From IMG/VR virus record IMGVR_UViG_3300050821_002102, positions 1 through 21,867 of that record: 21,867 bases of DNA; one strand, 5' to 3'. Each line of letters starts with the position of its first letter. The first letter of the stretch is position 1. Below the pieces are notes generated by a model that worked only from the letters and a program-made list of their open reading frames with translations, was not told the DNA's origin and did not search any database. A program made the translations under genes and the position numbers. Of the stretch, positions 2,438-21,867 are shown in pieces. This stretch comes from a virus.

Positions 2438-3505
2438 TCAAGTCACGGTAGCGGTGGCTGCCGGTAGGTCTGCGGATTCAAGAATCGGCGCAGCGCCAAC
2501 AGAGGAAACGGTTGCGACAGCGGCGTCACGATCGGCACGTTCAAGTATGGCGGATGATCCTGTCGCGATATGCGAACCGGCGGCGGCCACGGTGTCAGAG
2601 CTCTCGTGGATTGCGCTTGATCCAGTGATCTGTTGCGACCCCGTGGAGAACGACACGACAATGTCGTTGCCTTCAGTGACTGCTACGGTAGCGGTGATCT
2701 TCGGCCCGAAGGATGTCACTCGATCTGAAAGTTCGCGAATCGTACCCGACAAAGTGCTTGCTGCCGGTAGATATGATTTACCGATGATACGATCATGGTT
2801 CTCGCGAATGGCGCCCGACATAAACACTGCCGGCGAAATCACGAATTGTTCGCTAGCCCACGAACCTTGATCGAAGCCTTGGATTACTGCGTCTTCGATA
2901 TCGAACCCGAACAATGGTGCGAACGGAATGCCACCTGATCCTTGCGCAAAATAATGCGCAGTCACGCCGACGCCCGCGGCGACAACGTCGAGATAACCGC
3001 CCTTGTAGAGGGTCCCAGTGACCGCATTCGGAACCGGTCCAATCAACAGGAACGCAATTGTCATATCCTGGTGATCGATGATGTATTCGCTGTAACCGAG
3101 AGGGTTCCAGAATTGATTCAATACCGCCTCACCGCCGGGTACCGTACCGTCCCAATGATTCGCGGCCACGGTGGCATACAGCAATAGCCGGTATTCGTCA
3201 TCAGGCAATTCGTATGCAACCGTGTTGGTGCCGCCGACGCCTACCGGGGCCCATGCGCCTTGATCGAAACCGAGACCCGTGGTGTCGAACGAGAAGAAGA
3301 TGCCTGTAGGCGGCACTTGCACCACACGCGTCGGACCGATCCATTGCCCCGTAGTGTCTAGTTGTGAACCGACTGCGACATCGAGGTTGTACAAGTTCGG
3401 GAGAGCGTTAGTAACGTTTTGTTGATCAACGATAGGTTGTAGTAACGCTTGCATTACCGCGATGAAGTCGGGTTGCGAGAACGGGGCTTGCGGGAGTTGG
3501 GTCAT
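2438..3505 (-). CDS. DUF2612-like tail/baseplate protein with C-terminal ExxD-repeat array
   Basis: A 355-residue protein; ATG at 3505 follows the adhesin stop by one base, with GGAG nine bases upstream. Residues 1-160 fit DUF2612: V-G-S-Q-L-D-T-T-G-Q-W-I-G-P-T-R, then G-F-D-Q-G-A-W and D-D-E-Y-R-L-L-L-Y. A second G-F-D-Q-G-S-W occurs at residues 210-216, an internal duplication of a motif seen at 79-85. Residues 232-355 are six ExxD repeats ending mid-unit in A-T-A-T-V-T. DUF2612 proteins sit at the baseplate next to the J wedge and may link the fibre (analogous to protein I); that role is inferred. Confidence 0.8.
   Translation of the reverse strand: MTQLPQAPFSQPDFIAVMQALLQPIVDQQNVTNALPNLYNLDVAVGSQLDTTGQWIGPTRVVQVPPTGIFFSFDTTGLGFDQGAWAPVGVGGTNTVAYELPDDEYRLLLYATVAANHWDGTVPGGEAVLNQFWNPLGYSEYIIDHQDMTIAFLLIGPVPNAVTGTLYKGGYLDVVAAGVGVTAHYFAQGSGGIPFAPLFGFDIEDAVIQGFDQGSWASEQFVISPAVFMSGAIRENHDRIIGKSYLPAASTLSGTIRELSDRVTSFGPKITATVAVTEGNDIVVSFSTGSQQITGSSAIHESSDTVAAAGSHIATGSSAILERADRDAAVATVSSVGAAPILESADLPAATATVT
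2441..2812 (-). repeat. ExxD peptide-repeat array, six copies at the DUF2612 protein C-terminus
   Basis: Glutamates at residues 235, 258, 278, 301, 322 and 343, spacing 23, 20, 23, 21 and 21; every one is followed three residues later by aspartate. Cores include R-E-N-H-D, R-E-L-S-D, T-E-G-N-D, H-E-S-S-D, L-E-R-A-D and L-E-S-A-D. The turn A-T-G-S-S-A precedes two of the cores, matching A-S-G-S-S-A in the array at the right edge. Confidence 0.88.
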
Positions 3506-3506
3506 C

Positions 3507-5654
3507 TTAGAAACTCCACAACGCAAGTTGGTTGTTTCGAATGAATGTACCGTATCCGTTCGACACCCACATAGCTCCAGGTACCGCTATCGGACTACCG
3601 CTGTACACCGACGCAAGCGTATCCAAAACCGTTGCCGTATTGCCATTCGTCAATTTAAGAATTGTCACACCATTATTGTTCGATCCGGATTGTAGCCATA
3701 GAGTTTGCAAATCGACATCTAAACAACCCTTAGGCTCATTGGGATCGCTAGGATCACTGTCTGCAAAATCTCCGCTTAATGCACCCACAGTAGGCACGTA
3801 AAGAGTCGGGAATGCGCCTGTTGATACTAGCGTCGCTGCACCCCCGGTGACTTTGACAACGCTCCACACATACGGTGCCGTATTAGATGCGTTTGCGGTA
3901 ATCATCAAAATATGCGCGCCATCACTGCACGGATACACTGCTTTGATGAAAAATCCGCTAGGTACATTCGGGGCACCGCTTAGGGCTGGGAAGCAGTCGA
4001 AAAGATATGTGGCCGCGCCTGTCGAATAACCAGAGACAACGACTGCGTAGGCAGACGAATTGCTAGCATATCCGGTCGCTGCTGCGAGGAACCGAAGGCA
4101 CACACTATTACCTTCTGTAGTGCCCATAGCCCCGTAGCCAGACGAACTAAGCGTGAATCCAGAACAGCTAGGTGCGTGCCCGTTTTGGCTTCGAGCCCCC
4201 CATGCTTTTTCAACTGCACCCTCCACAGTAGTCGAAACATATGCCCCCGTGGTGGCACTGTAATTATAAATATTACCGTCACCAGCAAGTTGCGCAAATG
4301 TAGTTCCGTAATTGCTACGGTCAACTATATTGATGCCCCCGGACAAACTCATTCCCGTGATCACTGGCCACAATGAGGTAGCTGTGGTGTATCCGGACGT
4401 AGCGAACGGTGGAGTAGTTACAGTGGTTTCAAAAATCTTGGATAGCGCACGCAACGAAGTAGTCACTGTGTCACGAGATTCGCGCATTGCACCCGACATC
4501 GCTACAGTAACTCCTGCTACGGCGACGACAGAGTCATGCCCCTCACATGCTCGCGATCTTGCGACCGGCGGTACAACGACAGGCGCACTCAGCGAGTTGT
4601 TGTGCTCCGGAATGATAAGCGACAGATAGGATTGCACAGTAACAGGCGTCGGCGCCGGAGGTGCGGCAAGCGAGGCAACATTCGGCACATTGATTGCTAG
4701 GATTGATTGCCCCGCGGCTGTTTGACTTCCACCGAGAGCCCACGTTGGCGTTAACGAAACAGAATATGTTCCAGCCGTCGTATATGTGTGTGTTGGATCC
4801 TGCAATACGCTCGTCGCACCATCACCAAAATTCCATGACCACGACACTTCTGTGTCGCCCGGTCCGGTAGATGTATCCGTGAACGACACTGGTGAATTCA
4901 ATCGCGCAGGAATCGGCGACATCGAGAATGCGGTGGTGTATGCAATGAACGGCGCCGTCGGTGGTGCGAAGTTTGCGGTATAGACCGCATAGTTCGACAG
5001 GCGAACTTCGTCCATGTAGCCTTGAACAAATGATTCAGCGCTCGATGATCGACTGCCACCGATGGCGGCGTAAATCAAGCCTGACAAATTAGTTGTCGGT
5101 TGAGCGTATGTGGTGTTCGAAACGATGCCGTTTACATAAAGTTTCAAAACATTCGAATGTCTGACAAACGCTATATGAGTCCACGCATTGGCAGGCAATG
5201 CGGGGCCTGTAGGAAATGAGCCACCCCACGAAGTACCAGACGAATCTGTAATGTACGCAATGAGATTACCCGAACCATCACTGACAAAATCAATATAAGG
5301 ATTGTTAGCCACGCTATTAAATTGAGCACCGGCCGCAGGCAAAATTTTACCAAACGATGCCCACGTAGAGCTACTGAAATTGTGGGTCCAGTAGGCTTGG
5401 AGTTCGAATGTCCAATCTGATTGCCAAATATCAAATGCGGCATTCGATCCGATTACTCCAATGGCACCGCCGGGAAATCCCGAGATTATGTTGCCACGAT
5501 AGGACGACGGACCAAATTTCGCTTGTGTCGTCGACAGTACCGGCGAACCTTGATCGATCGTGAACGGTGTCGCATACGCCGACGAATCGACGAACGACGT
5601 GGAGTTGTTCGCCCCGTCGAAATGCATCAGCAGAAGCGTAGGACTGCTAGTCAT
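3507..5654 (-). CDS. LamG and PKD domain adhesin with ExxD repeats
   Basis: A 715-residue protein. Residues 1-235 form a LamG/concanavalin-like domain (L-L-M-H-F-D-G-A-N-N-S at the start, W-T-H-I-A-F-V-R, L-Y-V-N-G, Y-M-D-E-V-R-L-S-N-Y-A-V-Y). Residues 245-325 are a PKD domain (W-N-F-G-D-G, H-T-Y-T-T-A-G-T-Y-S-V). Residues 348-410 are a linker with three ExxD-type repeats (E350, E371, E392, each 21 apart; the first has N for D). Residues 415-715 are beta-rich with no domain I can name, perhaps a propeller. These domains usually bind sugars, so a surface adhesin is likely. Base composition is visibly more A/T-rich than the head genes, suggesting recent acquisition. It separates two wedge genes usually close together. 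Confidence 0.8.
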   Translation of the reverse strand: MTSSPTLLLMHFDGANNSTSFVDSSAYATPFTIDQGSPVLSTTQAKFGPSSYRGNIISGFPGGAIGVIGSNAAFDIWQSDWTFELQAYWTHNFSSSTWASFGKILPAAGAQFNSVANNPYIDFVSDGSGNLIAYITDSSGTSWGGSFPTGPALPANAWTHIAFVRHSNVLKLYVNGIVSNTTYAQPTTNLSGLIYAAIGGSRSSSAESFVQGYMDEVRLSNYAVYTANFAPPTAPFIAYTTAFSMSPIPARLNSPVSFTDTSTGPGDTEVSWSWNFGDGATSVLQDPTHTYTTAGTYSVSLTPTWALGGSQTAAGQSILAINVPNVASLAAPPAPTPVTVQSYLSLIIPEHNNSLSAPVVVPPVARSRACEGHDSVVAVAGVTVAMSGAMRESRDTVTTSLRALSKIFETTVTTPPFATSGYTTATSLWPVITGMSLSGGINIVDRSNYGTTFAQLAGDGNIYNYSATTGAYVSTTVEGAVEKAWGARSQNGHAPSCSGFTLSSSGYGAMGTTEGNSVCLRFLAAATGYASNSSAYAVVVSGYSTGAATYLFDCFPALSGAPNVPSGFFIKAVYPCSDGAHILMITANASNTAPYVWSVVKVTGGAATLVSTGAFPTLYVPTVGALSGDFADSDPSDPNEPKGCLDVDLQTLWLQSGSNNNGVTILKLTNGNTATVLDTLASVYSGSPIAVPGAMWVSNGYGTFIRNNQLALWSF
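4425..4613 (-). repeat. ExxD peptide repeats in the adhesin linker
   Basis: Three copies with glutamates at residues 350, 371 and 392, exactly 21 apart, then a degenerate fourth at E409. The cores are P-E-H-N-N, C-E-G-H-D and R-E-S-R-D. They join the PKD domain to the C-terminal beta region. Confidence 0.7.
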
Positions 5655-6850
5655 TACGTCACCGTGACCACGACGTTAGCCGGCATGCAGAACGCGGCCG
5701 CGTTAAACGCAATCGGAATATTCACCATTCCGACAGGACTCGGCGCAAGTCCGACAGTGAGAGACGTGATGTAATACGTCGCGCCTGCGCCGGCCGAGTC
5801 GAGTTGCGCAGCAGGATACAGCTGCGAGTAAAACACTTCGCCACCGATCGGAAGAGATTCGAGAAATGCTGACACAGAATTTTGAATCAGCGTCGCCGTA
5901 GTGCTGGCATAGTTCGGCAACGCCTTAACCGTGATGCTAACGTAGACAGGAACCTCGGTCAGCACATCAAAGCGAATCGTCACCGGCAAACCCGAACCTG
6001 GATCAGTCACCGAGAAGGTTTCGGCACCGTACGTTCCGGTACCTTGGGATTTCGTTTGTTGAATCGTTTCGGCGATCGTCAGTAGATTGCCACCAGCCAC
6101 AATGACGTCGATCGAGTGACTGGGTACGCCATTCGCATCTGTCACTGATGTGTTGTTCTCGTATACGGTCCATTGCGTCACGCCGGATAGTTGCCCGATC
6201 GCAGCGAAGATAGACGCCAAAGGCGAGCTCGCGGGCAATGCGACGGATCCTGCCTGACGCACTCGCAACGCCGCGTCAGTTTCGACAGGTGCCCCGACCT
6301 GGGCGATATGCACAGGATTGTTCACCGAGGCCCAACCCAATTGTGGAGTATTGATCACGTTCACTGTGTTCAGCGCTGCGCTGATCGCGCCGATCTGTTG
6401 CGCGGTAGCATTCACATCGATGGCGCCAGCGAACGGGATTGTGACCGCCGTCGGCAGATTCCACAGGTTACCGTTCGTGTCCTGCACGATGCCATTATTG
6501 AGTGTCGTGTTCGCGGTCCCCGTGATCGTCACAACGACCGTACTGTTCGTGGCCACATCGCGCGTCAGACCATTGATTCGGACCATACTCGACAGATTGG
6601 CACCTTGCGCGAATGACGGACTGAACGATTGATACGCGGTCACTACGGCGTTGTTCTGATCATTGATTGCGTTTGCGAAAACTGCCAGCATATTGCCGTC
6701 CTGACTGTCCGGAGAAATCACAGAGTCAGAACCATAGATCGACTGGAAACTAGCCTGCAACGATGCATAGACGTCGGCATACGAAGGAATAGTGATCCCC
6801 GCAGAAGTGATAGTCGGGCCGAGTGTGGCTAGCGGATAAGGTCCTGCCAT
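5654..6850 (-). CDS. Baseplate wedge protein, J/gp47-like
   Basis: A 398-residue protein. The N-terminal pattern I-P-S-Y-A-D-V-Y-A-S-L, Y-G-S-D and P-D-S-Q-D-G-N-M-L, followed by helical Q-G-A-N-L-S-S-M-V-R-I-N-G-L-T-R, is diagnostic for baseplate J proteins. The middle has V-E-T-D-A-A-L-R-V-R-Q, also conserved. It forms wedge dimers around the hub and holds fibre attachment proteins. The stop overlaps the next start as TAATG, so the adhesin gene after it is coupled. Confidence 0.9.
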   Translation of the reverse strand: MAGPYPLATLGPTITSAGITIPSYADVYASLQASFQSIYGSDSVISPDSQDGNMLAVFANAINDQNNAVVTAYQSFSPSFAQGANLSSMVRINGLTRDVATNSTVVVTITGTANTTLNNGIVQDTNGNLWNLPTAVTIPFAGAIDVNATAQQIGAISAALNTVNVINTPQLGWASVNNPVHIAQVGAPVETDAALRVRQAGSVALPASSPLASIFAAIGQLSGVTQWTVYENNTSVTDANGVPSHSIDVIVAGGNLLTIAETIQQTKSQGTGTYGAETFSVTDPGSGLPVTIRFDVLTEVPVYVSITVKALPNYASTTATLIQNSVSAFLESLPIGGEVFYSQLYPAAQLDSAGAGATYYITSLTVGLAPSPVGMVNIPIAFNAAAFCMPANVVVTVT

Positions 6851-6860
6851 GTTGCACCTG

Positions 6861-7211
6861 TTAGATCGAAACTGTCACCGGCTCTGTGCCGTAAATTGTG
6901 TTCAGAGTCACGCTGCAATGCCATTGTCGTTTGCTATCGAGCGACGACGAATAGGCCAAAATTTGATTCACGCCAGGCGTATTAACGATGGCAGCTTGAA
7001 TCGCCACGTCGCGCGAGCCGGCGGTGCCGAACCCGAGCACTTGGGTGGTGTATGGAACCCCGACGTTCGAGTCGAGGAACCATTGCCCTTGCCATAGCCG
7101 CAGACGCGTCAGGACAGCTTGGGCGACGCACTGCGGACTGTTCACCAGGAATTGGGTTCTCCCGCTGAAAATCGTGCTGTCGCCGTCTGGCGTGAGTGCG
7201 CGGTACCGCAT
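6861..7211 (-). CDS. Baseplate wedge protein, gp25/gpW-like
   Basis: A 116-residue protein with AGGA seven bases before the ATG. The segments Q-F-L-V-N-S-P-Q-C-V-A-Q-A-V-L-T-R-L, W-Q-G-Q-W-F-L-D, and G-V-P-Y are typical of W/gp25-like wedge proteins, which start sheath assembly on the baseplate. Length and position before the J-like wedge are as expected. No oddities. Confidence 0.75.
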   Translation of the reverse strand: MRYRALTPDGDSTIFSGRTQFLVNSPQCVAQAVLTRLRLWQGQWFLDSNVGVPYTTQVLGFGTAGSRDVAIQAAIVNTPGVNQILAYSSSLDSKRQWHCSVTLNTIYGTEPVTVSI

Positions 7212-7219
7212 TTTTTATC

Positions 7220-7960
7220 CTATGCCACGGGGCCTGAAAGATCGCCACCGGTCTGAACTTCCGTATGCAAATGAGTCTCGTCAATCGGATGCCCGTTGGC
7301 ACGAACAGTGCCAGTGAACACAGTGGCCGCCACCACATCCAGACTTGGCGCGGTGAGATCTATATCAGTGGCTGCCGTCATGTCGATGCCAGCCCCAGCT
7401 TGCAATTTGATGCTTCCGCCGGCAGTAATGTTAACGTCAGATGGCGTTACGATGTTCACTACGTGGCCGCCGGCAATCTCGATGTAAGCCTGGCCGTCGT
7501 CTGAACGCAATTGTACCGTAGATGTGCTTACCGCCGAGAGTACGTTCGGTAGCGACCGGGGACCCACCATGACGAAGCAATCCGACAGATCGTGCATCCG
7601 CAGATCGCCCTGCTGCACAATGCCGCCCTGGCCCCACCAACCATCGATACAACGGCTCGATACGTGGAGCAGACATTCATCGTTTGGCAGAATCGGAAAC
7701 GTCAGGCTGAAGCCCCCTCCATGCGGGAATACCACGGGGCAATCGTTAATTACGGGGATGTTGATGATGATCGGATTGCTGGTGTTCGACAGCGGGTCGA
7801 TCGTCTGAATCCCAATGGTGCATTGAACCTGACACGTCTGCCGCACAGCATCGTAGGATACGATGAACGCAGGCAGGCACGTCCAGATCTGTGCTTGACG
7901 ACCATCGAGCGCGGCAGATACTGCCACACGAAGATCTTGAAATCGTTCACGCGGATCCAT
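7220..7960 (-). CDS. Membrane-puncturing spike, Gp138 family
   Basis: A 246-residue protein. The ATG at 7960 gives M-D-P-R-E-R-F-Q-D-L, the usual start in this family, and sits right after the hub stop. Residues 25-140 form the OB-fold region (I-W-T-C-L-P-A, then V-V-F-P-H-G-G-G and L-P-N-D-E-C-L-L), 145-220 a beta-helix of D/N-x-x-I/L repeats, and the tip holds H230-L-H232 followed by a G-P end. In related spikes such H-x-H pairs bind an iron ion at the needle point. It pierces the outer membrane during tail contraction. An AGAGA sequence upstream is a modest ribosome site. Confidence 0.88.
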   Translation of the reverse strand: MDPRERFQDLRVAVSAALDGRQAQIWTCLPAFIVSYDAVRQTCQVQCTIGIQTIDPLSNTSNPIIINIPVINDCPVVFPHGGGFSLTFPILPNDECLLHVSSRCIDGWWGQGGIVQQGDLRMHDLSDCFVMVGPRSLPNVLSAVSTSTVQLRSDDGQAYIEIAGGHVVNIVTPSDVNITAGGSIKLQAGAGIDMTAATDIDLTAPSLDVVAATVFTGTVRANGHPIDETHLHTEVQTGGDLSGPVA

Positions 7961-7961
7961 A

Positions 7962-9927: not shown

Positions 9928-11417
9928 TACGATTTCCCAGGAGTGGCCAACAAGCCTCTCGTGTCGCGGGTCAGATCACCCATGTCGCGTCTATTCTGTT
10001 CGGCTGCAGATTTGCCAATCGTAGCGGCGTCGTTCCCGTGAATGTTTTGCGTGATGTTCTGCGTGACATTGACGTTAGCGCCGGCACCCGCGTTATCTCC
10101 ACCACTCGGGTTCTTTTTCGACACCGGGGCATCCGCACCCATTCGACCAGCTTTCAGATTCCTACCGTAATGCTCCAGCGTGGTGTAAAGATGCTGTTGA
10201 GTTTCCTCAGGCATGTGCTGAAGCCAGTCGTCACCGAATTGCCGAACCATCTGACGAACATGCTCGGGTGTCGAATTTGTCGCAGCGATGGCTTTCTCGA
10301 TATCCTTGAACTCATTGATGTTACGTTCGAGCATGCCCATTCCGGCTTCGGCATTTGGCGCTGTCTCCATCATCTGAGTCTTATTCGTATGGAGCGCGGC
10401 GAAGTTGCTCGGGTCAATCTGGAAACCACCGGTAGCCCCACTCTTGGGATTCACCATATTCTGACCACGGGAGGACTCTGTAGCCCACAGGGCATCCGCG
10501 AGTAACGGATCGACTCCGTGCTGCTTGGCGATGCGCGCGATAATCTCAGGGTCGTTTTCAGGCTTTGCTTTGGCAGTATCGAGCGCGGTCTGTTCTTCTT
10601 CTGTTTGAAATCCAGCACTCAGCGGATCCTGGAAATTACCACCCGTGGCCAGCGATCCTCCGAAACCTTGCACCAGCATATGCAAGTTTTCTTCGATCGC
10701 CTTCATCACGGTATTCACGGTGGGCATAAGCACGACCGCCAACTGCGATCCGATCGCGCCGATATCGGCGCCCATCTTGCGGAGATTGTTGTTGAACTCG
10801 GTGGACTTCTCGGCGAGATCGCCCATGTTCACGCCAGACTCTTTTAGCAGCGCGACTCGGTCCGCCTCGATCGCGGCGATCTTGTCGATGTTTTTGACTG
10901 CCGTGTTGAAGTCTCGCTCGCTCATTCCGAACACGAGATTGGCCTGCTGCGCAGCGACGGCATACGATCCCGTCTTCGCCATGTCGGCCAGCTTTTTCAT
11001 GATCGCCATGGCGGCCTCGGCCTTGTCCATGGATGCAGTGTCGATGCCAAACATGTTCGACACGAATTCGGTCATTCCCGGATTCGCACGAAGATTCTCG
11101 GCCAATCCTTCGATGAATTCAGTACTCTTGCCCGCGGCAAAACCGGCGCTTTGAAACGCGCCTTCCATGGCTTTGAGGTTCGTGACTGATGCGCCGGTAC
11201 GCTGCGAAATGTAGAACAGCTTCTCCATTCCGTTGGCCATATGCTCGACGAATTTTTCGACGGCGAAGCCCGCTCCGATCAGGGCCGCCCCAACGCCCAT
11301 CGCACCTTTGGCAGATCCCGTCAGCGCATTGCCGAACTTCTTCATGCCTGCTTCGTCGATCTTGAAGCCGAGGCCGATCAGAAACTCTTTGATAATTTCG
11401 GAATCAGTCGTTGCCAT
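9927..11417 (-). CDS. Tail tape measure protein with lytic transglycosylase domain
   Basis: A 496-residue protein. The ATG at 11417 gives M-A-T-T-D-S-E-I-I-K-E-F-L-I-G-L-G-F-K-I-D-E-A-G-style start (shown split), typical of tape measures in this phage group; AAGAG lies eight bases upstream. Residues 35-55 and 220-250 are hydrophobic and the first 280 residues are helical. Residues 290-410 form a soluble lytic transglycosylase-like domain: V-D-P-L-L-A-D-A-L-W-A-T-E-S-S with E314 as probable acid, and S-G-A-T-G-G-F-Q-I. The end, V-N-V-T-Q-N-I-T-Q-N-I-H-G, is usual for tape measures. It sets tail length and opens the cell wall. At under 500 residues it implies a rather short tail. Confidence 0.88.
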   Translation of the reverse strand: MATTDSEIIKEFLIGLGFKIDEAGMKKFGNALTGSAKGAMGVGAALIGAGFAVEKFVEHMANGMEKLFYISQRTGASVTNLKAMEGAFQSAGFAAGKSTEFIEGLAENLRANPGMTEFVSNMFGIDTASMDKAEAAMAIMKKLADMAKTGSYAVAAQQANLVFGMSERDFNTAVKNIDKIAAIEADRVALLKESGVNMGDLAEKSTEFNNNLRKMGADIGAIGSQLAVVLMPTVNTVMKAIEENLHMLVQGFGGSLATGGNFQDPLSAGFQTEEEQTALDTAKAKPENDPEIIARIAKQHGVDPLLADALWATESSRGQNMVNPKSGATGGFQIDPSNFAALHTNKTQMMETAPNAEAGMGMLERNINEFKDIEKAIAATNSTPEHVRQMVRQFGDDWLQHMPEETQQHLYTTLEHYGRNLKAGRMGADAPVSKKNPSGGDNAGAGANVNVTQNITQNIHGNDAATIGKSAAEQNRRDMGDLTRDTRGLLATPGKS

Positions 11418-12014
11418 GGTAGTACTCTTGAACGCGTCTTTGATTTTCGGCTCGAACGTCAAGGGCCTCGTTCATTAGGAATATGCGGTACAGATCTAGA
11501 GTACCATCCCAAAGGCTCTCTTCGCGACACATACCTTCGATGACAGGGCGGTAGATGAAATCCTCATTGCCGGCCATCGAAACGAACTCTATGTCGTCAG
11601 AGGCCCCGCCGCCTCGCCTTTCGAAGGGGCGACGAGGAGCCCCTTGAAAAAAGGCTGGAAATTTTCCATCAGGACTTCCCACGTTAGTCGCAGCAGCTGC
11701 GGCATGTCGAAGTCCTGGTACATCATCGTCGCGCCCCGCATGACCGGGAAGCTCATTCCGCGTGCGTCATCTTTGACTCTAATCACGGAAAGGCATTTGT
11801 TGATGACATAGTCCAACTGTTCGTCGGGCAGAGTAGAAAGCGTCTCAGACATGGCCATGACCATATCCAGCTGGTTCACACCGCCCGGCGTGCGCATAAC
11901 TTGCAACACCGGCTTCATGATCGGCATCACGCGGCGAAACACATGTAGCTGTTCGAACGCGTTCAGTTTGCCGATCTCAAATGTCTTGCCGTCAATCGTC
12001 GCTTCAGTGGCCAT
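11404..12014 (-). CDS. Tail assembly chaperone, -1 frameshift fusion (gpGT-like)
   Basis: Slipping back one base at T-TTT-TTC (11652-11646) joins the first 123 codons of the chaperone to an overlapping frame that runs to 11404 and adds 80 residues (Q-G-A-P-R-R-P-F-E-R-R and onward to Q-E-Y-Y-H-G-N-D). The total is about 203 residues. The added part has no start codon or ribosome site of its own within the new segment, and its stop overlaps the tape measure start by 14 bases. This is the standard organisation of the lambda G/GT pair, found in most phages with long tails. Exact slip rate cannot be read from sequence. Confidence 0.82.
11589..12014 (-). CDS. Tail assembly chaperone (short, unshifted form)
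   Basis: A 141-residue, mostly helical protein starting two bases after the tube gene stop. It begins M-A-T-E-A-T-I-D-G-K-T-F-E-I-G-K-L-N-A, a form usual for chaperones encoded between tube and tape measure genes (functional counterparts of lambda gpG). It should bind the tape measure while the tail is assembled. Near its 3' end at 11646-11652 the transcript has T-TTT-TTC in frame, a classic -1 slippery heptamer, which leads to the longer form. Confidence 0.8.
   Translation of the reverse strand: MATEATIDGKTFEIGKLNAFEQLHVFRRVMPIMKPVLQVMRTPGGVNQLDMVMAMSETLSTLPDEQLDYVINKCLSVIRVKDDARGMSFPVMRGATMMYQDFDMPQLLRLTWEVLMENFQPFFKGLLVAPSKGEAAGPLTT
11646..11652 (-). promoter_or_regulatory. -1 programmed ribosomal frameshift site T-TTT-TTC
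   Basis: The heptamer is in the correct frame of the chaperone gene (the TTT codon begins 363 bases, or 121 codons, after the start). A 7-bp stem can form just downstream, between AAGGGGC at 11645-11639 and GCCCCTT at 11630-11624, with other possible pairings further on; it may stimulate slipping, though the spacer is very short. Confidence 0.8.
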
Positions 12015-13998: not shown

Positions 13999-14724
13999 TC
14001 AAGTGTGCGTCGCGGTAGCAGACACAGTATCGAACTTTTCAATCACCGACATCATCCCAATCGGTGGCCCAAACACTGAAGCCACGGCATGCACGATGTC
14101 AGAACTTTCGTTTATCGACGCGTCGCCGTCGGGCTGCAACACCACGATCGTCGTCGTGTACGACTCATTGTTCACGGTCACATTAGCGGCGACCAGATCC
14201 AGAATCGCATACCAACGGACAATCTGACGTCGTATTCTAACAGGCAAATCCACCCGATAGAGCCAGCGCTCCTTCGTGAGAGAGGGTACTGTCCTCAGAT
14301 CTCCGGTGTCGACCAGGCTCGCATTCTGAGTGTTCAGGATGGCCAGATTCTGCGGAATGTAAAGTCCGTCACGCAGTAGCGCAGCATAGTAATCGGCAGT
14401 GCCATCAGGACTGTAGAATGAGACAAGAATTTCAAGCGTCTCGTGTGTCTGAAATTCGTCATGTTCGGGGATGTTGCCGGTCGCCGGCACATGTTTGATG
14501 AATGCGAATTTCGGATTGCTACGTTTCGTCACACCAAATGCGGCCCAATTGCCGACGGGCAGATTCGCGACATCCGGAAATTGCCATCGCGGGAAGAACG
14601 ATGTCCCCGGCATCCCCGTGATATTGACGAAGATCTGCTGCAGGAATCGAAACAGATCCTGCCCTTCGAGTGGCGCGGGTGCGTTGTACGGGAGAAGATA
14701 GCCACCGGTGGCCGACGTGTTCAT
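13999..14724 (-). CDS. Tail terminator protein with C-terminal ExxD-repeat extension
   Basis: A 241-residue protein. Residues 1-196 match phage neck/tail terminator proteins: an N-terminal helix L-F-R-F-L-Q-Q-I-F, the segment P-R-W-Q-F, then H-E-T-L-E-I-L-V-S-F-Y and R-E-D/L-R-D-G-L-Y-I-P-Q-N, a layout shared with LIC12616-like proteins. Such proteins form the hexameric ring ending the tail tube and accept the head. Residues 202-241 are extra: two copies of the ExxD repeat (E206/D209 and E229/D232, spacing 23), ending mid-unit in S-A-T-A-T-H-T. The extension is odd because terminators are usually compact. The sheath ATG is 13 bases downstream. Confidence 0.75.
   Translation of the reverse strand: MNTSATGGYLLPYNAPAPLEGQDLFRFLQQIFVNITGMPGTSFFPRWQFPDVANLPVGNWAAFGVTKRSNPKFAFIKHVPATGNIPEHDEFQTHETLEILVSFYSPDGTADYYAALLRDGLYIPQNLAILNTQNASLVDTGDLRTVPSLTKERWLYRVDLPVRIRRQIVRWYAILDLVAANVTVNNESYTTTIVVLQPDGDASINESSDIVHAVASVFGPPIGMMSVIEKFDTVSATATHT
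14002..14121 (-). repeat. ExxD peptide repeats, two copies on the tail terminator
   Basis: Two copies with cores N-E-S-S-D and I-E-K-F-D, 23 residues apart and separated by a P-P-I-G turn, as in the 23-residue units of the partial protein at the right edge. The gene ends seven residues past the second Asp-Thr-Val, at the same phase as the end of the DUF2612 protein. Confidence 0.8.
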
Positions 14725-15125: not shown

Positions 15126-15129
15126 GACA

Positions 15130-15768: not shown

Positions 15769-15772
15769 GGCA

Positions 15773-16015
15773 TCACAGCATTGGGTTATCGGCTTTCGCC
15801 TTCTCATGCGCGGCCTGGCGCGCGGCCTCGACCGCTTCTTTCGAATGCTTCGCGGCATACGCGGCCGCTCCGGTCGCGGGGGTATTCACGCGGGCTGTAC
15901 CTGTCGACGTCGCAAATTTGCCGCCGGCACGCTTATGCTTCGCCTCTTCGAACGCGTCCGCGACGTGTTGTCCGAACATGCCGGCACGTAGATGTAAATG
16001 GATGTGGGTGGCCAT
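15773..16015 (-). CDS. Small His-rich protein with HxHxH N-terminus
   Basis: An 80-residue protein beginning M-A-T-H-I-H-L-H-L. Alternating histidines suggest a beta strand that binds metal, but this is unproven. Further on comes K-H-K-R-A-G-G-K-F-A-T, similar to the G-R-F-A motifs seen in many phage head-region proteins, then an Ala/Lys/Glu-rich helix to the end. The ribosome site is weak (GAGA). Its TGA stop lies four bases before the ATG of the next small His-rich protein, implying translational coupling. I recognise no named family. Confidence 0.65.
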   Translation of the reverse strand: MATHIHLHLRAGMFGQHVADAFEEAKHKRAGGKFATSTGTARVNTPATGAAAYAAKHSKEAVEAARQAAHEKAKADNPML

Positions 16016-16023
16016 GATCGGTC

Positions 16024-16590
16024 TCAGGTTTTGTTTCTAACAACGTATGTTACCGCGTTTCTCATTTCCGCCTCGTCTACCAGAGTGTTCGTTCTAGTCA
16101 CCCCGCGCGCCCGGCGATCTGCCAAGGTCCGTTCAGCCAAAGGCGGCGGGGTGTTCGAATTGATTTGTTCCTTAATTGAATCGGCCGCCACGATGCCGGC
16201 AGCATTCAAACCTATCTCGATCCCTTGCGCATTTCCAGCTATGGCCGATCGCGCCACTGCCGACATGTGTTTGTTAATCGCCTCTTGCGCAGCCTCGATG
16301 CCCGGCATCATAGTCGGGCGTGCGGGAATGTTCGCCTCGGGGGCACCGAATTCGTTGATATACAGTCGCGCTGCGTTATTCAAAGATTCAGGATCCTTTT
16401 CACGATCCGCGTGATCTGCCGGAATTCCCACAACGACCTCGCGTTGTACAAGGTCGTATAGGGCCTGTATAACGATCTGAGAACGATCCGTCGTCTGTGA
16501 TGCCCCATTGCCGCCCACAACCCTGAATGCGTTGCTCAGGCTCGCTACAAGCCCGCGCATAGCTGATTCGTCGAATGCGCCGGTTGCCAT
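16024..16590 (-). CDS. Phage virion morphogenesis protein, gp10/gpG-like neck protein
   Basis: A 188-residue protein. The segment V-V-G-I-P-A-D-H-A-D-R, then N-N-A-A-R-L-Y-I-N-E-F-G-A, and I-P-A-R-P-T-M-M-P-G is the hallmark of gp10-like or virion morphogenesis proteins, which take part in joining head and tail. After it come an amphipathic helix (I-E-A-A-Q-E-A-I-N-K) and a C-terminus with P-P-L-A-E-R-T-L, also typical for this group. It sits between the DUF4054-like connector and small His-rich genes. No oddity in length. Confidence 0.75.
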   Translation of the reverse strand: MATGAFDESAMRGLVASLSNAFRVVGGNGASQTTDRSQIVIQALYDLVQREVVVGIPADHADREKDPESLNNAARLYINEFGAPEANIPARPTMMPGIEAAQEAINKHMSAVARSAIAGNAQGIEIGLNAAGIVAADSIKEQINSNTPPPLAERTLADRRARGVTRTNTLVDEAEMRNAVTYVVRNKT

Positions 16591-16592
16591 GA

Positions 16593-17081
16593 CTACCCCG
16601 AGAAGTCTTCGAAGCGAGGCCCGGACCAGGCAGCCCCCATCGGCGAAAACACCCCTGAATTGAACTGCTGTCCTGGCGGTGTGAATCCAGGGGGCGACTG
16701 CAGTGGTCCCGAACCAAATTGCCGGGCCATGTGCAGGAGAAGCGTCCCGTATCGAGTGCTGGCGAACGGGCCGTCTTCTGCGTGCGCGCCCATCGCGGTG
16801 TCATAAGCGATCGTGAGCTCACCGACCGTCTTGCTGGAAATCGGCCCTATCGTCATTCCTGGAGGCGCGCCATTGCTGCCTTCGGCCGTAGATAGCCCTT
16901 GCATCGTGAGATTGTGCGCCGTGTACAGCTGCGCGCCAAGATCGATCGCGACATTCCAACGTCGAGACGGCAGCAGTATATAGGCGTACTGCAGCCACAG
17001 ATTCACCATCGAATCCGGGTAGATAGTGGTCGACTTGAATTCCGGGAAATTAGCCCGGAAGCCTGGAACATCGATAGCCAT
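16593..17081 (-). CDS. Head-tail connector protein, DUF4054-like
   Basis: A 162-residue protein. The N-terminus F-R-A-N-F-P-E-F, then Y-P-D-S-M-V-N-L-W-L-Q-Y-A, R-R-W, and A-A/Q-L-Y-T-A-H-N-L follow the helical pattern of DUF4054 head-tail connector proteins (gp6/gp15-like). These bind the portal as a ring and open the path to the tail. The C-terminus is Gly/Pro-rich and probably flexible. The start is four bases after the stop of the small gene before it, with only a weak GAAG site, so coupling is likely. The next gene begins two bases after its TAG stop. Confidence 0.8.
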   Translation of the reverse strand: MAIDVPGFRANFPEFKSTTIYPDSMVNLWLQYAYILLPSRRWNVAIDLGAQLYTAHNLTMQGLSTAEGSNGAPPGMTIGPISSKTVGELTIAYDTAMGAHAEDGPFASTRYGTLLLHMARQFGSGPLQSPPGFTPPGQQFNSGVFSPMGAAWSGPRFEDFSG

Positions 17082-17085
17082 GGTG

Positions 17086-17280
17086 TTACTTCAAAAAGTC
17101 GGCCGCGCGAAGTTCGGCTTCTGTCCAACCTGCAGCTAGGAAGTCCACAATGGATACGCCTTGGGCTTTCGCCGTCATGCGGGGATCTTGGACCTTGCTG
17201 TGCGGGGCAGTGCCGCCATGCGGCTGATTGTGGGGATCCACACTCGGGGCCACTTTGTGACTGGTAGGCAGTAACGACAT
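17086..17280 (-). CDS. Small hypothetical protein between capsid and connector genes
   Basis: A 64-residue protein starting M-S-L-L-P-T-S-H-K. I chose this ATG because AGGAG lies just upstream (in the 17286-17292 region) and because longer in-frame versions would run backwards through the terminator hairpin into the capsid gene. The centre is rich in His, Pro and Gly (P-H-N-Q-P-H-G-G); the C-terminus has V-D-F-L-A-A-G-W-T-E-A-E-L-R-A, a pattern common at the ends of small phage head proteins. No known function. Position suggests a head-associated role. Confidence 0.7.
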   Translation of the reverse strand: MSLLPTSHKVAPSVDPHNQPHGGTAPHSKVQDPRMTAKAQGVSIVDFLAAGWTEAELRAADFLK

Positions 17281-17298
17281 TTCTATCTCCTGAAAGTG

Positions 17299-17326
17299 AA
17301 AGGGCCGGGGTTTGCCCCGGCCCTTT
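17299..17326 (-). terminator. Hairpin terminator after the capsid gene
   Basis: A perfect 12-bp inverted repeat (17299-17310 with 17315-17326) around a 4-base loop, mostly G and C and ending in AAA/TTT. On the minus-strand transcript it is followed by a broken U stretch (UUUCACUUUC). It lies between the capsid stop and the next ribosome site, so it probably reduces read-through into the connector genes. The weak U stretch means termination may be partial. Confidence 0.8.
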
Positions 17327-17351
17327 GATGGGGCTTCCATCGATCTCTGAA

Positions 17352-18443
17352 TTACACCCCGTAACGCCAGCCTGCGGTTTCCGGGTACACGACTTCCACG
17401 ACGCCAAGGCGGCAGAAGTAGGTCGTCATGTGCCAGATGCCCGAGTATTGGATCGGCGTGCGCTGGAGCGTCGTCATCGGATAACGGACCCGGTTGTACT
17501 GCTTCGTGTAGCAGAACATGACATCGTTCGAGCTCGTCTTCGTGCCCGGTACACCGAAGCTTGCCGCTCCGACGCCAGCATTCAGACCGACCAGCCATTT
17601 GCACGGGAAGATCTGCAGACCGCCGCCCTTTTGGGCGCGGACGGTGATGTTGTTCTCTTCCAGGTACTTCAGGACCGACACATTACCGGCATTCGAAACC
17701 TTCTGCGTCGAGATCAGACCAAACACGACCGGCGGGAGCAGCAGGCGGTTCGGCATCACTGCCCACGCCGAAGCGGTCCATACGCTCGTGATGAGTTCGT
17801 TCACGTCGGCCAGCATTTCGTCGGCTTGCTTGCTCGCCCACGGTGTGTAGCCGCTGGCACCCGTCGCCACGATCTTGTTGTTCGTGATCAGCGAGGAATT
17901 GAGCAGACCGGTGTCGCCCGTGCCGAGGTCACCAACGTACACTTGCTCGTCGATGTCCATCTGATGCTTCAACTGCAGGAATTCGAATTTCTGCTGGTCG
18001 ACAGGACGACCCGTCTTCGCAGCCGATTCAAGTTCCATGATCGTGAACTTGACTTCTTGTTCCCAAATCCGCAACGGATTGGCGATCTTCGCGATGTCGA
18101 GCGATTGGCTGGTCACCTGATTGGTGGTCTTGCCGGCCCACGACTTACCACGACCGACACTGTTGCCAGTGCCGAGGCCGCCCGGCGAACCACCGGTCGA
18201 CAGCGTGTAGGACGAAAGCTCGTCCGCGATCGTAACGTCGGAGCGCAGATCGATGTCACGGTGCCAGGTGACCGAAGCCAGCGGCATGTGCAGCGTCTGA
18301 TCCAGACGTTCGAGTTCTCCGACCATGAACGCGCCGGTCGAGTCGACCGTACGGATCACGGCACCCTTGCTGTCACGCACCTTGGCAGGCGTGGTCAGCA
18401 TGTAACCCTTGATCGGGTCCAGGACGAGATTGGTCATATCCAT
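17352..18443 (-). CDS. Major capsid protein, DUF2184 type (HK97 fold)
   Basis: A 363-residue protein with AAGGA eight bases before its ATG. It matches the DUF2184 capsid family in length and order: an N-terminal arm, a central region W-E-Q-E-V-K-F-T-I-M-E-L-E-S-A, the helix D-E-M-L-A-D-V-N-E-L, then L-L-P-P-V-V-F and L-K-Y-L-E-E-N-N-I typical of the A domain, and a final R-R/T-P-I-Q-Y-S-G-I-W beta segment. The mature protein forms the icosahedral shell. It directly follows the cement gene and is followed 25 bases later by a strong hairpin terminator, fitting high expression. Base composition is the most G+C-rich I counted by hand (38 of 60 in 17581-17640). Confidence 0.9.
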   Translation of the reverse strand: MDMTNLVLDPIKGYMLTTPAKVRDSKGAVIRTVDSTGAFMVGELERLDQTLHMPLASVTWHRDIDLRSDVTIADELSSYTLSTGGSPGGLGTGNSVGRGKSWAGKTTNQVTSQSLDIAKIANPLRIWEQEVKFTIMELESAAKTGRPVDQQKFEFLQLKHQMDIDEQVYVGDLGTGDTGLLNSSLITNNKIVATGASGYTPWASKQADEMLADVNELITSVWTASAWAVMPNRLLLPPVVFGLISTQKVSNAGNVSVLKYLEENNITVRAQKGGGLQIFPCKWLVGLNAGVGAASFGVPGTKTSSNDVMFCYTKQYNRVRYPMTTLQRTPIQYSGIWHMTTYFCRLGVVEVVYPETAGWRYGV

Positions 18444-18482
18444 TGCAGTTTCCTTCGTGTTGTGCCGTTGGGCTCAGATTGA

Positions 18483-19058
18483 TTAGTCGACCAGGACGAT
18501 TTCGGCCACGCCGAAGCTGTCCGCCCCGCCCATCCAATAAGCGTCATCAACGATCAGCTGATTGGTGGTGTAGGGATCCTGAACCGATTCGAATCCACCA
18601 ACCGGCAACGTCGTGAACGCGGAGGGGGTCGTCGCAGTAGTCACTCGAACATACACCGTGCCGCCGAGTACGGAGGTCGCGGCATACGTGCCTGTGGGTT
18701 GGTTCTGAGCAACGAGGATCGAACCTTGGGTCAGCACGTCAACCACTTGGCCGGCCGTCGGGCCGCTAGCGTTGAACGCAGCCGCGCCAAACGTCTCGCC
18801 CGAGCCATTGTCTTGCGTCGGGTACGGACGAACGGTCACGCCCACGATGTCGACGGAAGTGGCACCCTTGCCGCTGTCGTCGGTATGATCAACTGCACGC
18901 ACGGTGTTCGTCGCGCCATGGAACAGAACGGCTTGACCGAACAGAGTTGCGGGGTTCGAGCCACTGGCGTCATTCATGAACGCGCGGATCGAGCTCGGGT
19001 GAATACGGGTAACATCACCGGGAGAACCGGCACCCATGCGGTACGTGAAAGCGGCCAT
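18483..19058 (-). CDS. Structural cement / head decoration protein
   Basis: A 191-residue protein with AAGGA about seven bases before the ATG. It is almost all beta-prone, with many G, T, V and A, no membrane segment and no catalytic motif. The sequence M-A-A-F-T-Y-R-M-G at the start, the R-I-H-P-S-S-I-R segment and the stretch Y-V-R-V-T-T-A-T-T-P resemble phage cement proteins that sit between a DUF2213 protease and a DUF2184 capsid protein. Such proteins trimerise on the capsid surface and stabilise it after expansion. Position supports this role strongly; the family name is from memory. Confidence 0.7.
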   Translation of the reverse strand: MAAFTYRMGAGSPGDVTRIHPSSIRAFMNDASGSNPATLFGQAVLFHGATNTVRAVDHTDDSGKGATSVDIVGVTVRPYPTQDNGSGETFGAAAFNASGPTAGQVVDVLTQGSILVAQNQPTGTYAATSVLGGTVYVRVTTATTPSAFTTLPVGGFESVQDPYTTNQLIVDDAYWMGGADSFGVAEIVLVD

Positions 19059-19093
19059 GATTGATTCCTTGTCGTGTCGTAGTCAGTTGAAAA

Positions 19094-20077
19094 TTACTCG
19101 GCGGCTTGTTGCTTTGCCCAAAAATCTTCGTTCATGCGCTGCACGTCGGCCGTCGACATGGGGCTGTAGGAAATGGTATTCGTTGCGCCCAATGAGGCGG
19201 ATGCATCGCTAACTCGCTTGGCATTGGCTGCAACTTCTTCCGCCGTCATACCGCGGAGAGACGCCGTGCTCAGCTGGGCTTTGCGAACCGCGACCGCGCC
19301 GCGGAACGCAGAAGTCACGTCACGGCAGCTGCAGTCAGCGAAATTGGTCGTACGCGTGATTTGCGCCAGAACTGCTTGACCTTCGGTCGACGCGGCAAAC
19401 GCCGTCAGCGCTTTGCGGCGCATCCCGGTGATCGCAGCAAGACCTTGCGTCGGCGACAGCGCGCTGTCGAAAGTCGGGATCGAGATAGTGGGGGACAGAA
19501 CGGCGGCGTCAGCCAGTGTCTGAGCAAACGAGTCGACCAGCATCACGGAATCTTTGGCCTTGATCACGGCGTCGCCGGTTGCCTGAGGCGCTTCTTCTTT
19601 GAGTTCGCCCTCGATTTCCTTGTTGGCCTTCTCATGCGCGGGCTCGTCACCTTCTTTGCTGTCAACCATCGTGCCGGCGGTCTTGGCTTCTTCCGACATG
19701 GCATCCAGACTCTTCTTGATTTCGGCGAAACCATCTTCGCACGTCTTCTTCAGATGCTCGAACGAGTCATCCATGCCCTTGATCTTCTCGTGGAACGCGG
19801 TATTCGCTTCCGAGTCTTGGAAGAAAACCTTCTCGCCAAACATGCTGGCCGAATTGTCTTTGGCTGAGTCCACGCGTGTATCTCCTGTTTCGGGCAGCCC
19901 ACCTTCGGGCTTCGTCGTTTCCGGTCCACCCAAATGGATATGGACGTGTGTTTCTGATTCCGGGTCGCCGGTAAGCTTCATGACTTCGTCGCTGTCGTCC
20001 ATGGCGGCCTTCATAGCCTCCTTGTCGTCACGCATGACGGCGTCTTTCATTCGCTTCATCCAATCGGCAACGCGCAT
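19094..20077 (-). CDS. Putative nested in-frame scaffold (internal start in protease gene)
   Basis: An in-frame ATG at 20077 (residue 216, M-R-V-A-D-W-M-K-R-M) has a GGAG box at 20086-20089, eight bases upstream. The start falls exactly between the protease domain and the charged helical region, so it would give a free 327-residue scaffold without the protease. This layout is known from other phages: lambda C with nested Nu3. Here it is inferred from the ribosome site and domain boundary only. Confidence 0.45.
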   Translation of the reverse strand: MRVADWMKRMKDAVMRDDKEAMKAAMDDSDEVMKLTGDPESETHVHIHLGGPETTKPEGGLPETGDTRVDSAKDNSASMFGEKVFFQDSEANTAFHEKIKGMDDSFEHLKKTCEDGFAEIKKSLDAMSEEAKTAGTMVDSKEGDEPAHEKANKEIEGELKEEAPQATGDAVIKAKDSVMLVDSFAQTLADAAVLSPTISIPTFDSALSPTQGLAAITGMRRKALTAFAASTEGQAVLAQITRTTNFADCSCRDVTSAFRGAVAVRKAQLSTASLRGMTAEEVAANAKRVSDASASLGATNTISYSPMSTADVQRMNEDFWAKQQAAE

Positions 20078-20722
20078 AGCAGAATCTCCGGTCTTCGTGG
20101 TTGTTTGCACACCACAGGGAGGAAGTATATCAGCACATTCGCAGGTAGTAGGTACCCCCCACAGATCGAGCGTCTGTAGTGGCGCAGCTGAATCTTTAAC
20201 TGAGCACACTCCGGATCCGCAACGACCCTCTTTGTGTCGCAAGAACGCAACATGGTTGATGCGAATGTTGCGCTGCGCTGCGCGGCCTGGTCCGTAGATC
20301 TGGTATTGCGATTCGTAGCCACATGACAGATCCTGCTCCGGATCCGCTTCGATAGCTTCAATCGCCTCGGGACTTTTGAACACCAGATCAGCAAACAACA
20401 AATGGTCTTCGACACCTTCGCCGCGACGCACGTTCTGCATGTGCCCGTGTGAAAGCATCTTCCAGTTGCCGGGAGTCACATCGACACCTGGATGATCGTC
20501 GACGATGTCTTTACCTTCGGCGCTCGCTATGGCCTCAGGCGAGAACACTTCCTCTGCATCACGTTCGACGCGAATGATCCCGTTAGGATCCGCCGGCAGA
20601 TCGACTTCGTTATGGCTATACAGCTGGAACCCAGTGCGCGCGATAGCGCAGCCGGAGATAACGAGGAAACCTTCCGGCGTCTTCGCTTTCCGTTTACTGA
20701 GTTTGATCGGCGTGTAGAACAT
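19094..20722 (-). CDS. DUF2213-type prohead protease fused to scaffold-like region
   Basis: A 542-residue protein. Residues 1-175 fit the DUF2213 family of phage head maturation proteases: T-P-E-G-F-L and I-A-R-T-G near the N-terminus, D-D-H-P with H77, V-T-P-G-N-W, L-S-C-G-Y with S133, and N-H-V-A-F with H157 ahead of a G-R-C-G. H77 and S133 are the likely catalytic pair by family analogy. Residues 215-400 are charged, Lys/Glu-rich and predicted helical, typical of an internal scaffold; residues 259-263 are H-V-H-I-H. The C-terminal 140 residues are Ala/Ser-rich. The protein should guide capsid assembly and then cleave the scaffold. It precedes the cement and capsid genes. The first ATG has no clear ribosome site, whereas an internal ATG at residue 216 has one (see that entry). 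Confidence 0.85.
   Translation of the reverse strand: MFYTPIKLSKRKAKTPEGFLVISGCAIARTGFQLYSHNEVDLPADPNGIIRVERDAEEVFSPEAIASAEGKDIVDDHPGVDVTPGNWKMLSHGHMQNVRRGEGVEDHLLFADLVFKSPEAIEAIEADPEQDLSCGYESQYQIYGPGRAAQRNIRINHVAFLRHKEGRCGSGVCSVKDSAAPLQTLDLWGVPTTCECADILPPCGVQTTTKTGDSAMRVADWMKRMKDAVMRDDKEAMKAAMDDSDEVMKLTGDPESETHVHIHLGGPETTKPEGGLPETGDTRVDSAKDNSASMFGEKVFFQDSEANTAFHEKIKGMDDSFEHLKKTCEDGFAEIKKSLDAMSEEAKTAGTMVDSKEGDEPAHEKANKEIEGELKEEAPQATGDAVIKAKDSVMLVDSFAQTLADAAVLSPTISIPTFDSALSPTQGLAAITGMRRKALTAFAASTEGQAVLAQITRTTNFADCSCRDVTSAFRGAVAVRKAQLSTASLRGMTAEEVAANAKRVSDASASLGATNTISYSPMSTADVQRMNEDFWAKQQAAE
20086..20089 (-). promoter_or_regulatory. Internal ribosome binding site GGAG for nested scaffold
   Basis: GGAG on the minus strand, eight bases before an in-frame ATG at 20077. 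It contrasts with the gene's own first ATG at 20722, which has no purine-rich box at proper distance. Confidence 0.45.
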
Positions 20723-20728
20723 GGCGAT

Positions 20729-20995
20729 TTACAGAATTGTCCACGCATCCGCGGCCGCGCCGGCAAACAGAATTTGACCGATCGGACCGTTGTAATTCAG
20801 CAGCAGCGTGCCCGCCGTCGTTGCGGTCGGAGACAGCGTGACAAAATTCACACCATCAGCACTGATCTCGATTGCACGGCCAGCGTTGGTCGAATTCAAC
20901 TGAATGCTGAACGGGGGCGAACCTGCACCCACGCCAACGGCTACCGTGCCGCCGGCAGGCAATGTTCCGTGCATGAAAGCGTATGGCGTATCCAT
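20729..20995 (-). CDS. Small beta-rich hypothetical virion protein
   Basis: An 88-residue protein starting MDTPYAFMHG. Its ATG shares one base with the stop of the gene before it, and GGAG lies eight bases upstream. It is rich in G, A, T, S and V and contains the strand-like stretch I-E-I-S-A-D-G-V-N-F-V-T-L-S, which resembles turns in phage decoration or fibre proteins. No signal peptide, membrane segment or catalytic motif is visible. Location between an adaptor-like gene and the prohead protease makes a structural role likely. I do not recognise the family. An upstream TTG could in principle add one residue. Confidence 0.55.
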   Translation of the reverse strand: MDTPYAFMHGTLPAGGTVAVGVGAGSPPFSIQLNSTNAGRAIEISADGVNFVTLSPTATTAGTLLLNYNGPIGQILFAGAAADAWTIL

Positions 20996-21327
20996 CAAAT
21001 ATTCTCCGCGACAATGAGGCGAAAGCCCCGAGTGAATTCACGATTGTCGGCAGTGACGATCGTGTTCGATACGAAATATGTTCCGGCCGTCGGAGTGGTG
21101 ATCCACGCAGTGTTCACGTTGGTTGGATTGTTGACCGATACCGCGCCAAGTGTTACGCCGGCCGGGAGATTCCACACTGAGGTCTTGATCTGATCGGACG
21201 GGACACTGCCCAAGCTGGCTAGCAGTAGCGTCCAATCGATGCTGTAGTCACGGTCGTCAGTCGGCGCAGCCAGAATGAACCAACCGTTCTCGTCACGTTG
21301 GAAACCATTCGGCGTGTTCTCATTCAT
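20995..21327 (-). CDS. Small virion protein, resembles phage fiber-tail adaptor-type proteins
   Basis: A 110-residue protein starting at the ATG that shares one base with the upstream stop (TGATG). A GAGG box lies seven bases before this ATG; a GTG three bases earlier is possible but worse spaced. Visible landmarks are D-Y-S-I-D-W near the N-terminus, then S-V-W-N-L-P-A-G-V-T, a W-I-T-T-P-T-A-G-T-Y-F-V-S-N stretch and a final R-E-F-T-R-G-F-R-L-I-V strand. This order (YxxDW, WxxPxGL, TAGTxYxVxN, R-x-F) is one I recall from small beta-rich phage proteins annotated as fiber-tail adaptors; I cannot confirm the family here. Fold inferred as an Ig-like beta sandwich. It probably acts in the virion rather than as an enzyme. 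Confidence 0.6.
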   Translation of the reverse strand: MNENTPNGFQRDENGWFILAAPTDDRDYSIDWTLLLASLGSVPSDQIKTSVWNLPAGVTLGAVSVNNPTNVNTAWITTPTAGTYFVSNTIVTADNREFTRGFRLIVAENI

Positions 21328-21867
21328 CACTCGACCTCTAGTACGGCGGGTTCGGGGGGCAATTGAAAAGTGGTCGGCTCTGCCGGCAATTGAAGGGTCA
21401 TTTGCCCCTCTCCATCAATCGTCATTCGGGAAATTTCAGCAAGCAGGGCCAGCGTAGCGGGTTCGGCAGGCAGAAATAACGGTACGTTAGGATTATACGC
21501 GCGAAGCGATGCGACGAAGGACTCGCTCCGTTCCAGTATCGCTGCGTGTCCGATGACCGGCGTGGTGACTGTGCTCGATGCTGATACCCGATCATGTGTT
21601 TCGACGATTGCGGATGACCCGCTCGCAATCACGGAAGATGATACGAATACGCGATCATTCGACTCACGAATTGAAGCGAATCCAATGGGTGGCGATAGTG
21701 CAATAGCGGTGGCGGCAACCTGATCATGACCTTCAGTGATTGCAGCACTGCCTGTAGCAGTAACCGCACTCGTGCCTACAACTCGATCGTGGGTCTCAGT
21801 GATAACCGCATTGCCAGTAGCGGTGATATTTGCTGACGCCGAAACATTGTCGTGAGATTCAAGAATT
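21327..21867 (-). CDS. C-terminal part of a repeat-rich virion protein (5' end outside window)
   Basis: The reading frame is open to the window edge, so only the last 179 residues are seen and the true start lies upstream. The first roughly 115 visible residues are six copies of a repeat with core I-x-E-x-x-D (E3, E24, E45, E68, E89, E112 of the visible part), spaced 21, 21, 23, 21 and 23 residues apart; the last copy has lost the Asp. The remainder contains a second small motif, LPAEP/LPPEP, three times before the stop. I do not recognise a conserved domain in the visible part. Its place just upstream of the small adaptor-like protein and the prohead protease, and the sharing of its repeat with three tail or neck proteins, suggest a structural protein. 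The next gene starts within its stop codon (TGATG). A GTG at 21632 is only an internal codon. Confidence 0.75.
   Translation of the reverse strand, partial: ILESHDNVSASANITATGNAVITETHDRVVGTSAVTATGSAAITEGHDQVAATAIALSPPIGFASIRESNDRVFVSSSVIASGSSAIVETHDRVSASSTVTTPVIGHAAILERSESFVASLRAYNPNVPLFLPAEPATLALLAEISRMTIDGEGQMTLQLPAEPTTFQLPPEPAVLEVE
21522..21866 (-). repeat. ExxD peptide-repeat array, six copies
   Basis: Tandem copies of a 21- or 23-residue unit with consensus A/S-I-x-E-x-x-D-x-V followed by alternating A/S/T/V residues. Units of 21 carry a T-A-T-G-like turn; units of 23 carry P-P-I-G or P-V-I-G at the same place. The bases diverge clearly between copies, so selection appears to be on the protein. 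The array may continue upstream of the window. Confidence 0.85.

Follow-up and report, generated by a model that had tools for sequence, protein, structure and literature searches.

A 21-residue peptide repeat is shared by four proteins encoded in the window, the whole 21,867-base IMG/VR virus record analysed here, which is a fragment from a contractile-tailed phage. The repeat is an almost exclusively phage-borne structural module for which no family or function has been described. As a reading made from the sequence alone had proposed, it is common to proteins from the head, neck and baseplate regions. There is about an even chance that it forms an elongated, length-adjustable beta stalk or spacer, which would set lectin heads and C-terminal extensions off the virion.

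Genome context

Window gene order was compared with that of annotated relatives. On the minus strand, the genes run from a partial protein at the right edge through a Gp77-family protein, an 89-aa protein, a DUF2213 protein, capsid, neck and terminator to sheath, tube, chaperone, tape measure, baseplate proteins, a LamG/PKD protein, a DUF2612 protein and a tail fibre. Among cultured phages, those nearest in sheath and capsid include Edwardsiella phage ZHS and Burkholderia phage Magia, and the nearest relative is a 71.8-kb record, G001. At 11404-12014, the tail assembly chaperone ORFs lie in different frames and share a stretch containing the slippery-like sites AAATTTC and TTTTTTC, which fits the programmed frameshift usual for such genes. 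The tail fibre (1439-2401) has a C-terminal C1q match (PF00386, E 1.2e-6).

The repeat unit and its carriers

The four carriers and their repeat tracts are as follows.

21327-21866, minus strand: right-edge ORF, 5′ end missing at the contig end
21492-21866, minus strand: six repeat units in the right-edge ORF (pattern and unit HMM)
13999-14724, minus strand: neck/tail terminator ORF (PF23961)
14002-14127, minus strand: two repeat units at the terminator C-terminus (PF23961; unit HMM)
3507-5654, minus strand: LamG/PKD protein ORF
4419-4562, minus strand: two repeat units of the LamG/PKD protein, flanked by a DUF2612-type peptide and the C-terminal domain
2438-3526, minus strand: DUF2612 baseplate-region protein (PF11041, Pfam E 1.3e-37)
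2441-2821, minus strand: six repeat units at the C-terminus of the DUF2612 protein (unit HMM)

A six-frame scan of the window for the strict pattern [hydrophobic]-x-E-x-x-D-x-V gives 12 occurrences, all of them in these four ORFs. Counting looser units gives 16 copies: six in the edge protein, two in the terminator, two in the LamG/PKD protein and six in the DUF2612 protein. The unit consensus is GxAxITExxDTVxAxGxxxxx (21 aa), its variable positions are small residues for the most part, and units are mostly spaced by 20, 21 or 23 residues. The sequence-only reading had claimed at least 17 copies in four unrelated proteins, with glutamates mostly 21 or 23 apart. That spacing agrees with ours. 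The copies stand with the exception of a third one in the LamG/PKD adhesin (IIPEHNNSLSA), which by profile score is better read as a DUF2612-type N-terminal peptide. The description as unrelated fails for the edge protein and the adhesin, since the edge orthologue in G001 is itself a LamG protein.

A unit HMM was trained on 107 two-unit segments from other viral contigs only, with the window left out. It matches exactly the four proteins first proposed to share the repeat (E 6.8e-21, 1.4e-9, 4.2e-6 and 9.5e-6); the next-best ORF of the window is at E 0.74. Of 4,000 tract shuffles (1,000 residue shuffles for each of the four tracts), none reaches the real score. With the E and D columns excluded, identity between units from different genes is 25%; shuffled units give 11% (no more than 13.6% in 500 trials), and within a gene the value is 28%. 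The copies thus align better with each other than shuffled sequences do. Nucleotide identity of units is only 43-46%, about equal within and between genes, and recent DNA copying among the repeat genes of the window was therefore ruled out.

Distribution

A two-unit DNA pattern was found in at least 119 IMG/VR stretches, with true 21-aa arrays in about half of the matches listed. Three strict units follow one another in at least 28 stretches among the matches listed. The three-unit pattern matched 47 stretches in 84,980 bacterial and archaeal genomes, two of which are this repeat, and one of the two, from Mesorhizobium, is identical to an IMG/VR contig. Most of the 47 are unrelated sequence, several being coiled coils or other repeats, and viral matches L133 and L141 were likewise dismissed as other repeats. 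Uncultured phages carry the unit widely and bacterial genomes hardly at all. Searching 50,697 cultured phages by tblastn with the edge tract and the G001 DUF2612 tract gave no match, probably in part because of the low-complexity filter. With a regular array as query, three cultured phages were matched (Vibrio 367.14, Curvibacter P26059A and Salinibacter B2_17); Salinibacter B2_17 has no match to the unit profile.

The profile finds the repeat in other phages, a check that the sequence-only reading had asked for; clustering of copies in several structural genes of the same phage, which it had raised as a question, did not prove general. Of 24 other records sampled, some of them partial, 21 confine the repeat to a single ORF, and the remaining three have one repeat ORF plus a neighbouring or weak second. 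G001 carries it in the edge orthologue, two LamG proteins and the DUF2612 protein, with a weak unit in the terminator; the carriers in G002 are the same where that record is complete. Spread to the terminator, the DUF2612 protein and baseplate LamG proteins is peculiar to the clade of the window.

Pfam and NCBIfam hold no family for the unit, a PDB profile search returned no counterpart, and a literature search with the motif letters found no paper. Pfam matches to SPOCS and haemagglutinin repeat families were below the cut-off. The sole match over it, to mucolipin (L024), is clearly due to chance, the protein being repetitive. Recognizing a widespread nameless module and its cassette offers a way into many hypothetical proteins of environmental phages.

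The right-edge protein and its cassette

Two further features adjoin the edge tract.

21330-21491, minus strand: C-terminal tail of the edge protein, with LPAEP-type short repeats, directly before the Gp77-family gene
20995-21330, minus strand: Gp77-family protein, 111 aa (PF23148, Pfam match)

The usual home of the repeat is a single gene beside phrog_3758 (annotated "virion structural protein"). In 25 of 25 examined records having phrog_3758, this gene lies on the same strand less than 5 kb from the repeat gene (7.1 expected), and in 23 of the 25 it is upstream. A Gp77-family gene follows 15-88 bp downstream of the repeat gene in eight records, and the family is present in 11 of 47 repeat-bearing records. 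Besides the window, seven phages have such a gene directly after the repeat gene. The window member scores 44.1 bits against PF23148 (cut-off 27). The G001 genes run from a portal-like protein and a minor head protein to the phrog_3758 homologue, followed by the LamG-repeat protein, the Gp77 protein and the 89-aa protein. The window edge protein fills the slot of the repeat gene in this cassette, and the cassettes of P26059A and G008 are also among head genes. The G001 edge orthologue (374 aa) consists of LamG, repeats and tail; its tract and tail are 38% identical to those of the window. We infer that the Gp77-family protein binds the C-terminal tail of the repeat protein.

ExR or LPAEx short repeats often end Gp77-adjacent repeat or fibre proteins (L026, L027, L068, L088, L117, L190, L253 and window 21330-21491). 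The association of ExR-type tails with Gp77 (Fisher p about 0.009) is a lead only, the pattern having been picked post hoc and the counts made by hand. Such a short ExR/LPAEx tail is possibly the segment held by the Gp77 adaptor. Contig L245 (8054-8908) has a second short repeat, AGEASPTDIRLR, twice, N-terminal to its 21-aa units, and L031 has a YTPP-related motif ahead of its 21-aa repeats. Several short motif families seem to be combined, mosaic-like, in the cassette proteins.

Repeats added to conserved cores

Copies sit on conserved cores, at C-termini or in linkers, as first described, and phage ZHS has the same cores without the repeat. The ZHS terminator (189 aa) and DUF2612 protein (223 aa) are repeat-free. 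In both ZHS and Magia, the DUF2612-region proteins are repeat-free and no LamG gene precedes DUF2612. The terminator carries two units in the window, one each in G001 (single and weak), L002 and L004, and none in ZHS and Magia, a gain or loss of units. Repeat tracts diverge much faster than cores: between the window and G001, the DUF2612 core is 86% identical and the repeats 53%.

The 21-aa unit is absent from all 77 other DUF2612 loci searched, some of which are near-identical to each other. In two DUF2612 relatives at 61% identity, L257 (4780-5547) and L259 (5941-6714), the C-terminus carries another short tandem repeat, YTPPxGGxLxFNF. The DUF2612 C-terminus therefore appears open to interchangeable repeat modules, which suggests a putative exchange site for unrelated ones.

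Fast divergence, unit indels and these unrelated repeats at the same end would all suit neutral or flexible C-terminal additions, that is, an expansion-tolerant low-complexity peptide with no specific role beyond exposure. Such an account is unlikely, given that the small, beta-prone and acidic pattern is kept at a 21-aa period in very divergent phages, that units resemble each other between genes about as closely as inside one gene, and that the conserved gene neighbourhood speaks for function.

The LamG/PKD protein and a DUF2612-type peptide

The LamG/PKD protein contains one further feature.

4596-4637, minus strand: DUF2612-type N-terminal peptide VQSYLSLIIPEHNN within the LamG/PKD protein (ungapped profile scan)

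Nearly all sampled DUF2612 proteins outside the clade of the window have an N-terminal YxxLITSEH or near variant, a peptide that is frequent by count in this analysis and lies outside the Pfam definition of DUF2612. It is absent from the DUF2612 proteins of the window and G001. In an ungapped scan of the 152,576 14-mers of the window, G001 and G002 with a profile of DUF2612 N-termini, VQSYLSLIIPEHNN was the top 14-mer at 24.8 bits, and the best unrelated 14-mer scored 9.1. Five LamG matches to the profile scored 24.8 and 19.2 bits. HMMER did not report the peptide in LamG proteins, so the likeness rests on a 14-residue motif. The form YxxLIxPEH is present in LamG proteins of the window (4596-4637) and of L006 (8278-9998). 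It is as if a putative baseplate docking peptide had moved from the DUF2612 protein of this clade to its adhesins. Its presence on lectin proteins hints at how adhesins may attach to the baseplate of a contractile tail.

Pfam has no family for the C-terminal 300 or so residues of the LamG/PKD protein (3507-4418), and the PKD match lies outside the repeat tract. The fusion of LamG to repeats in this clade speaks for the stalk, and its restriction to the clade, in three of 46 repeat proteins, counts against it. Lectin function, if any, resides in the LamG domains.

In the clade of the window, the same unit is on conserved anchors and on separate lectin proteins, an arrangement that could reflect homotypic docking: units of the anchors (terminator, DUF2612) and of lectins would stack edge to edge and capture accessory lectins at several virion sites. 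One or two terminator units are insufficient in length for a useful stalk and fit a docking site better, and solenoid-like ends could stack, at low structural confidence. This idea is doubtful all the same: most phages carry the unit in a single protein and hence need no docking partner, and the LamG proteins already have a DUF2612-type docking peptide. Moreover, the unit came to sit on both anchors and lectins inside one clade, so a comparative test of their association is impossible. A contact between virion parts, which the sequence-only reading had also suggested, is a possibility. A virion-wide code, in which repeat-end stacking joins lectin proteins to head, neck and baseplate anchors, is improbable; if true, it would be a plug-in system by which one phage decorates several sites with interchangeable adhesins.

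Predicted structure

For the window edge protein, the AlphaFold2 model is weak (pLDDT 60, pTM 0.48); it shows two strands in each unit, and Foldseek found nothing significant for it, which also counts against the stalk. For a regular nine-unit array from L090, pLDDT was 70-83 in most repeats, with three short strands per 21-aa unit. This model aligns with beta-solenoids, for example 3p4g (Z 15.8, rmsd 3.3 over 208 residues); its Foldseek E-values were not significant. AlphaFold2 over-predicts solenoids and gives confident but unrealistic ones for perfect repeats of such length (PMC11795689). A predicted beta-rich and elongated tract is therefore held likely, and a solenoid fold is left as a possibility.

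Could the repeat itself be a decoration that binds a ligand, either sugar or metal, as the sequence-only reading had suggested? E and D are its two fixed positions, though the search itself required both; a calcium-dependent beta-helix is among the best structural matches, and phage Ig-like domains, which are spread similarly, are proposed to help surface binding (PMC10385173). The unit has no conserved aromatic or cationic platform for sugar and lacks the glycine-rich calcium loops of 3p4g, and LamG would already provide lectin function. Ligand binding by the repeat is unlikely.

Proposed role

The repeat usually resides in one fibre-like protein of a conserved structural cassette of phrog_3758, repeat protein and often a Gp77-type adaptor. 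In the clade of the window, this protein has a LamG lectin first, then the repeats, then a C-terminal tail. Units have also been appended to the C-termini of the neck terminator and the DUF2612 protein, and one or two baseplate LamG proteins have them beside the DUF2612-type putative docking peptide. In the stalk reading, the edge protein would be attached via Gp77 and the LamG proteins via the DUF2612-type peptide. Exposed at the surface, lectin heads and flexible extensions would then probably project from head, neck and baseplate and promote reversible adsorption to cell-surface glycans. One clade with the same unit in head, neck and baseplate proteins is a natural system for studying multiple adhesive surfaces.

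Comparison with known systems

The only existing family that catches the unit is phrog_38872 (PHROGs v4), whose model spans 422 positions and has no assigned function. This family matches the edge protein (E 7.5e-6) and 33 of the 46 repeat proteins (best E 1.3e-48). The terminator, LamG/PKD and DUF2612 proteins of the window do not match it, though the unit HMM matches them, and recurrence of the unit in several proteins of one virion is absent from its record.

By its core, the window DUF2612 protein is a clear member of PF11041. It differs from other members in its added C-terminal repeat extension and in lacking the usual N-terminal YxxLITSEH, the peptide being found in LamG proteins instead. 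The gene directly downstream of the edge gene belongs to the same family as the Gp77 fibre-tail adaptor of podophage GP4 (PF23148, PDB 8jou), and one PF23148 family member matches 8jou chain D. The adaptor here is the neighbour of the repeat protein, not the repeat protein itself.

The beta-helical antifreeze/adhesin domain of MpAFP (PDB 3p4g) aligns structurally with the regular-array model, and no sequence relation to the unit was found. Calcium-binding beta-helices of the MpAFP type have a GTGND-type calcium loop in each repeat; the unit consensus has none.

The nearest analogue in behaviour is the phage Ig-like domain. Ig-like domains of phage virions, Hoc among them, were reportedly described by Fraser et al. 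in 2006. Pfam detects no Ig-family domain in the window proteins or the 46 repeat proteins, and at 21 aa the unit is far shorter than the Ig fold, which is about 90 aa. Like the repeat, phage Ig-like domains are small beta modules carried in variable number on various structural proteins.
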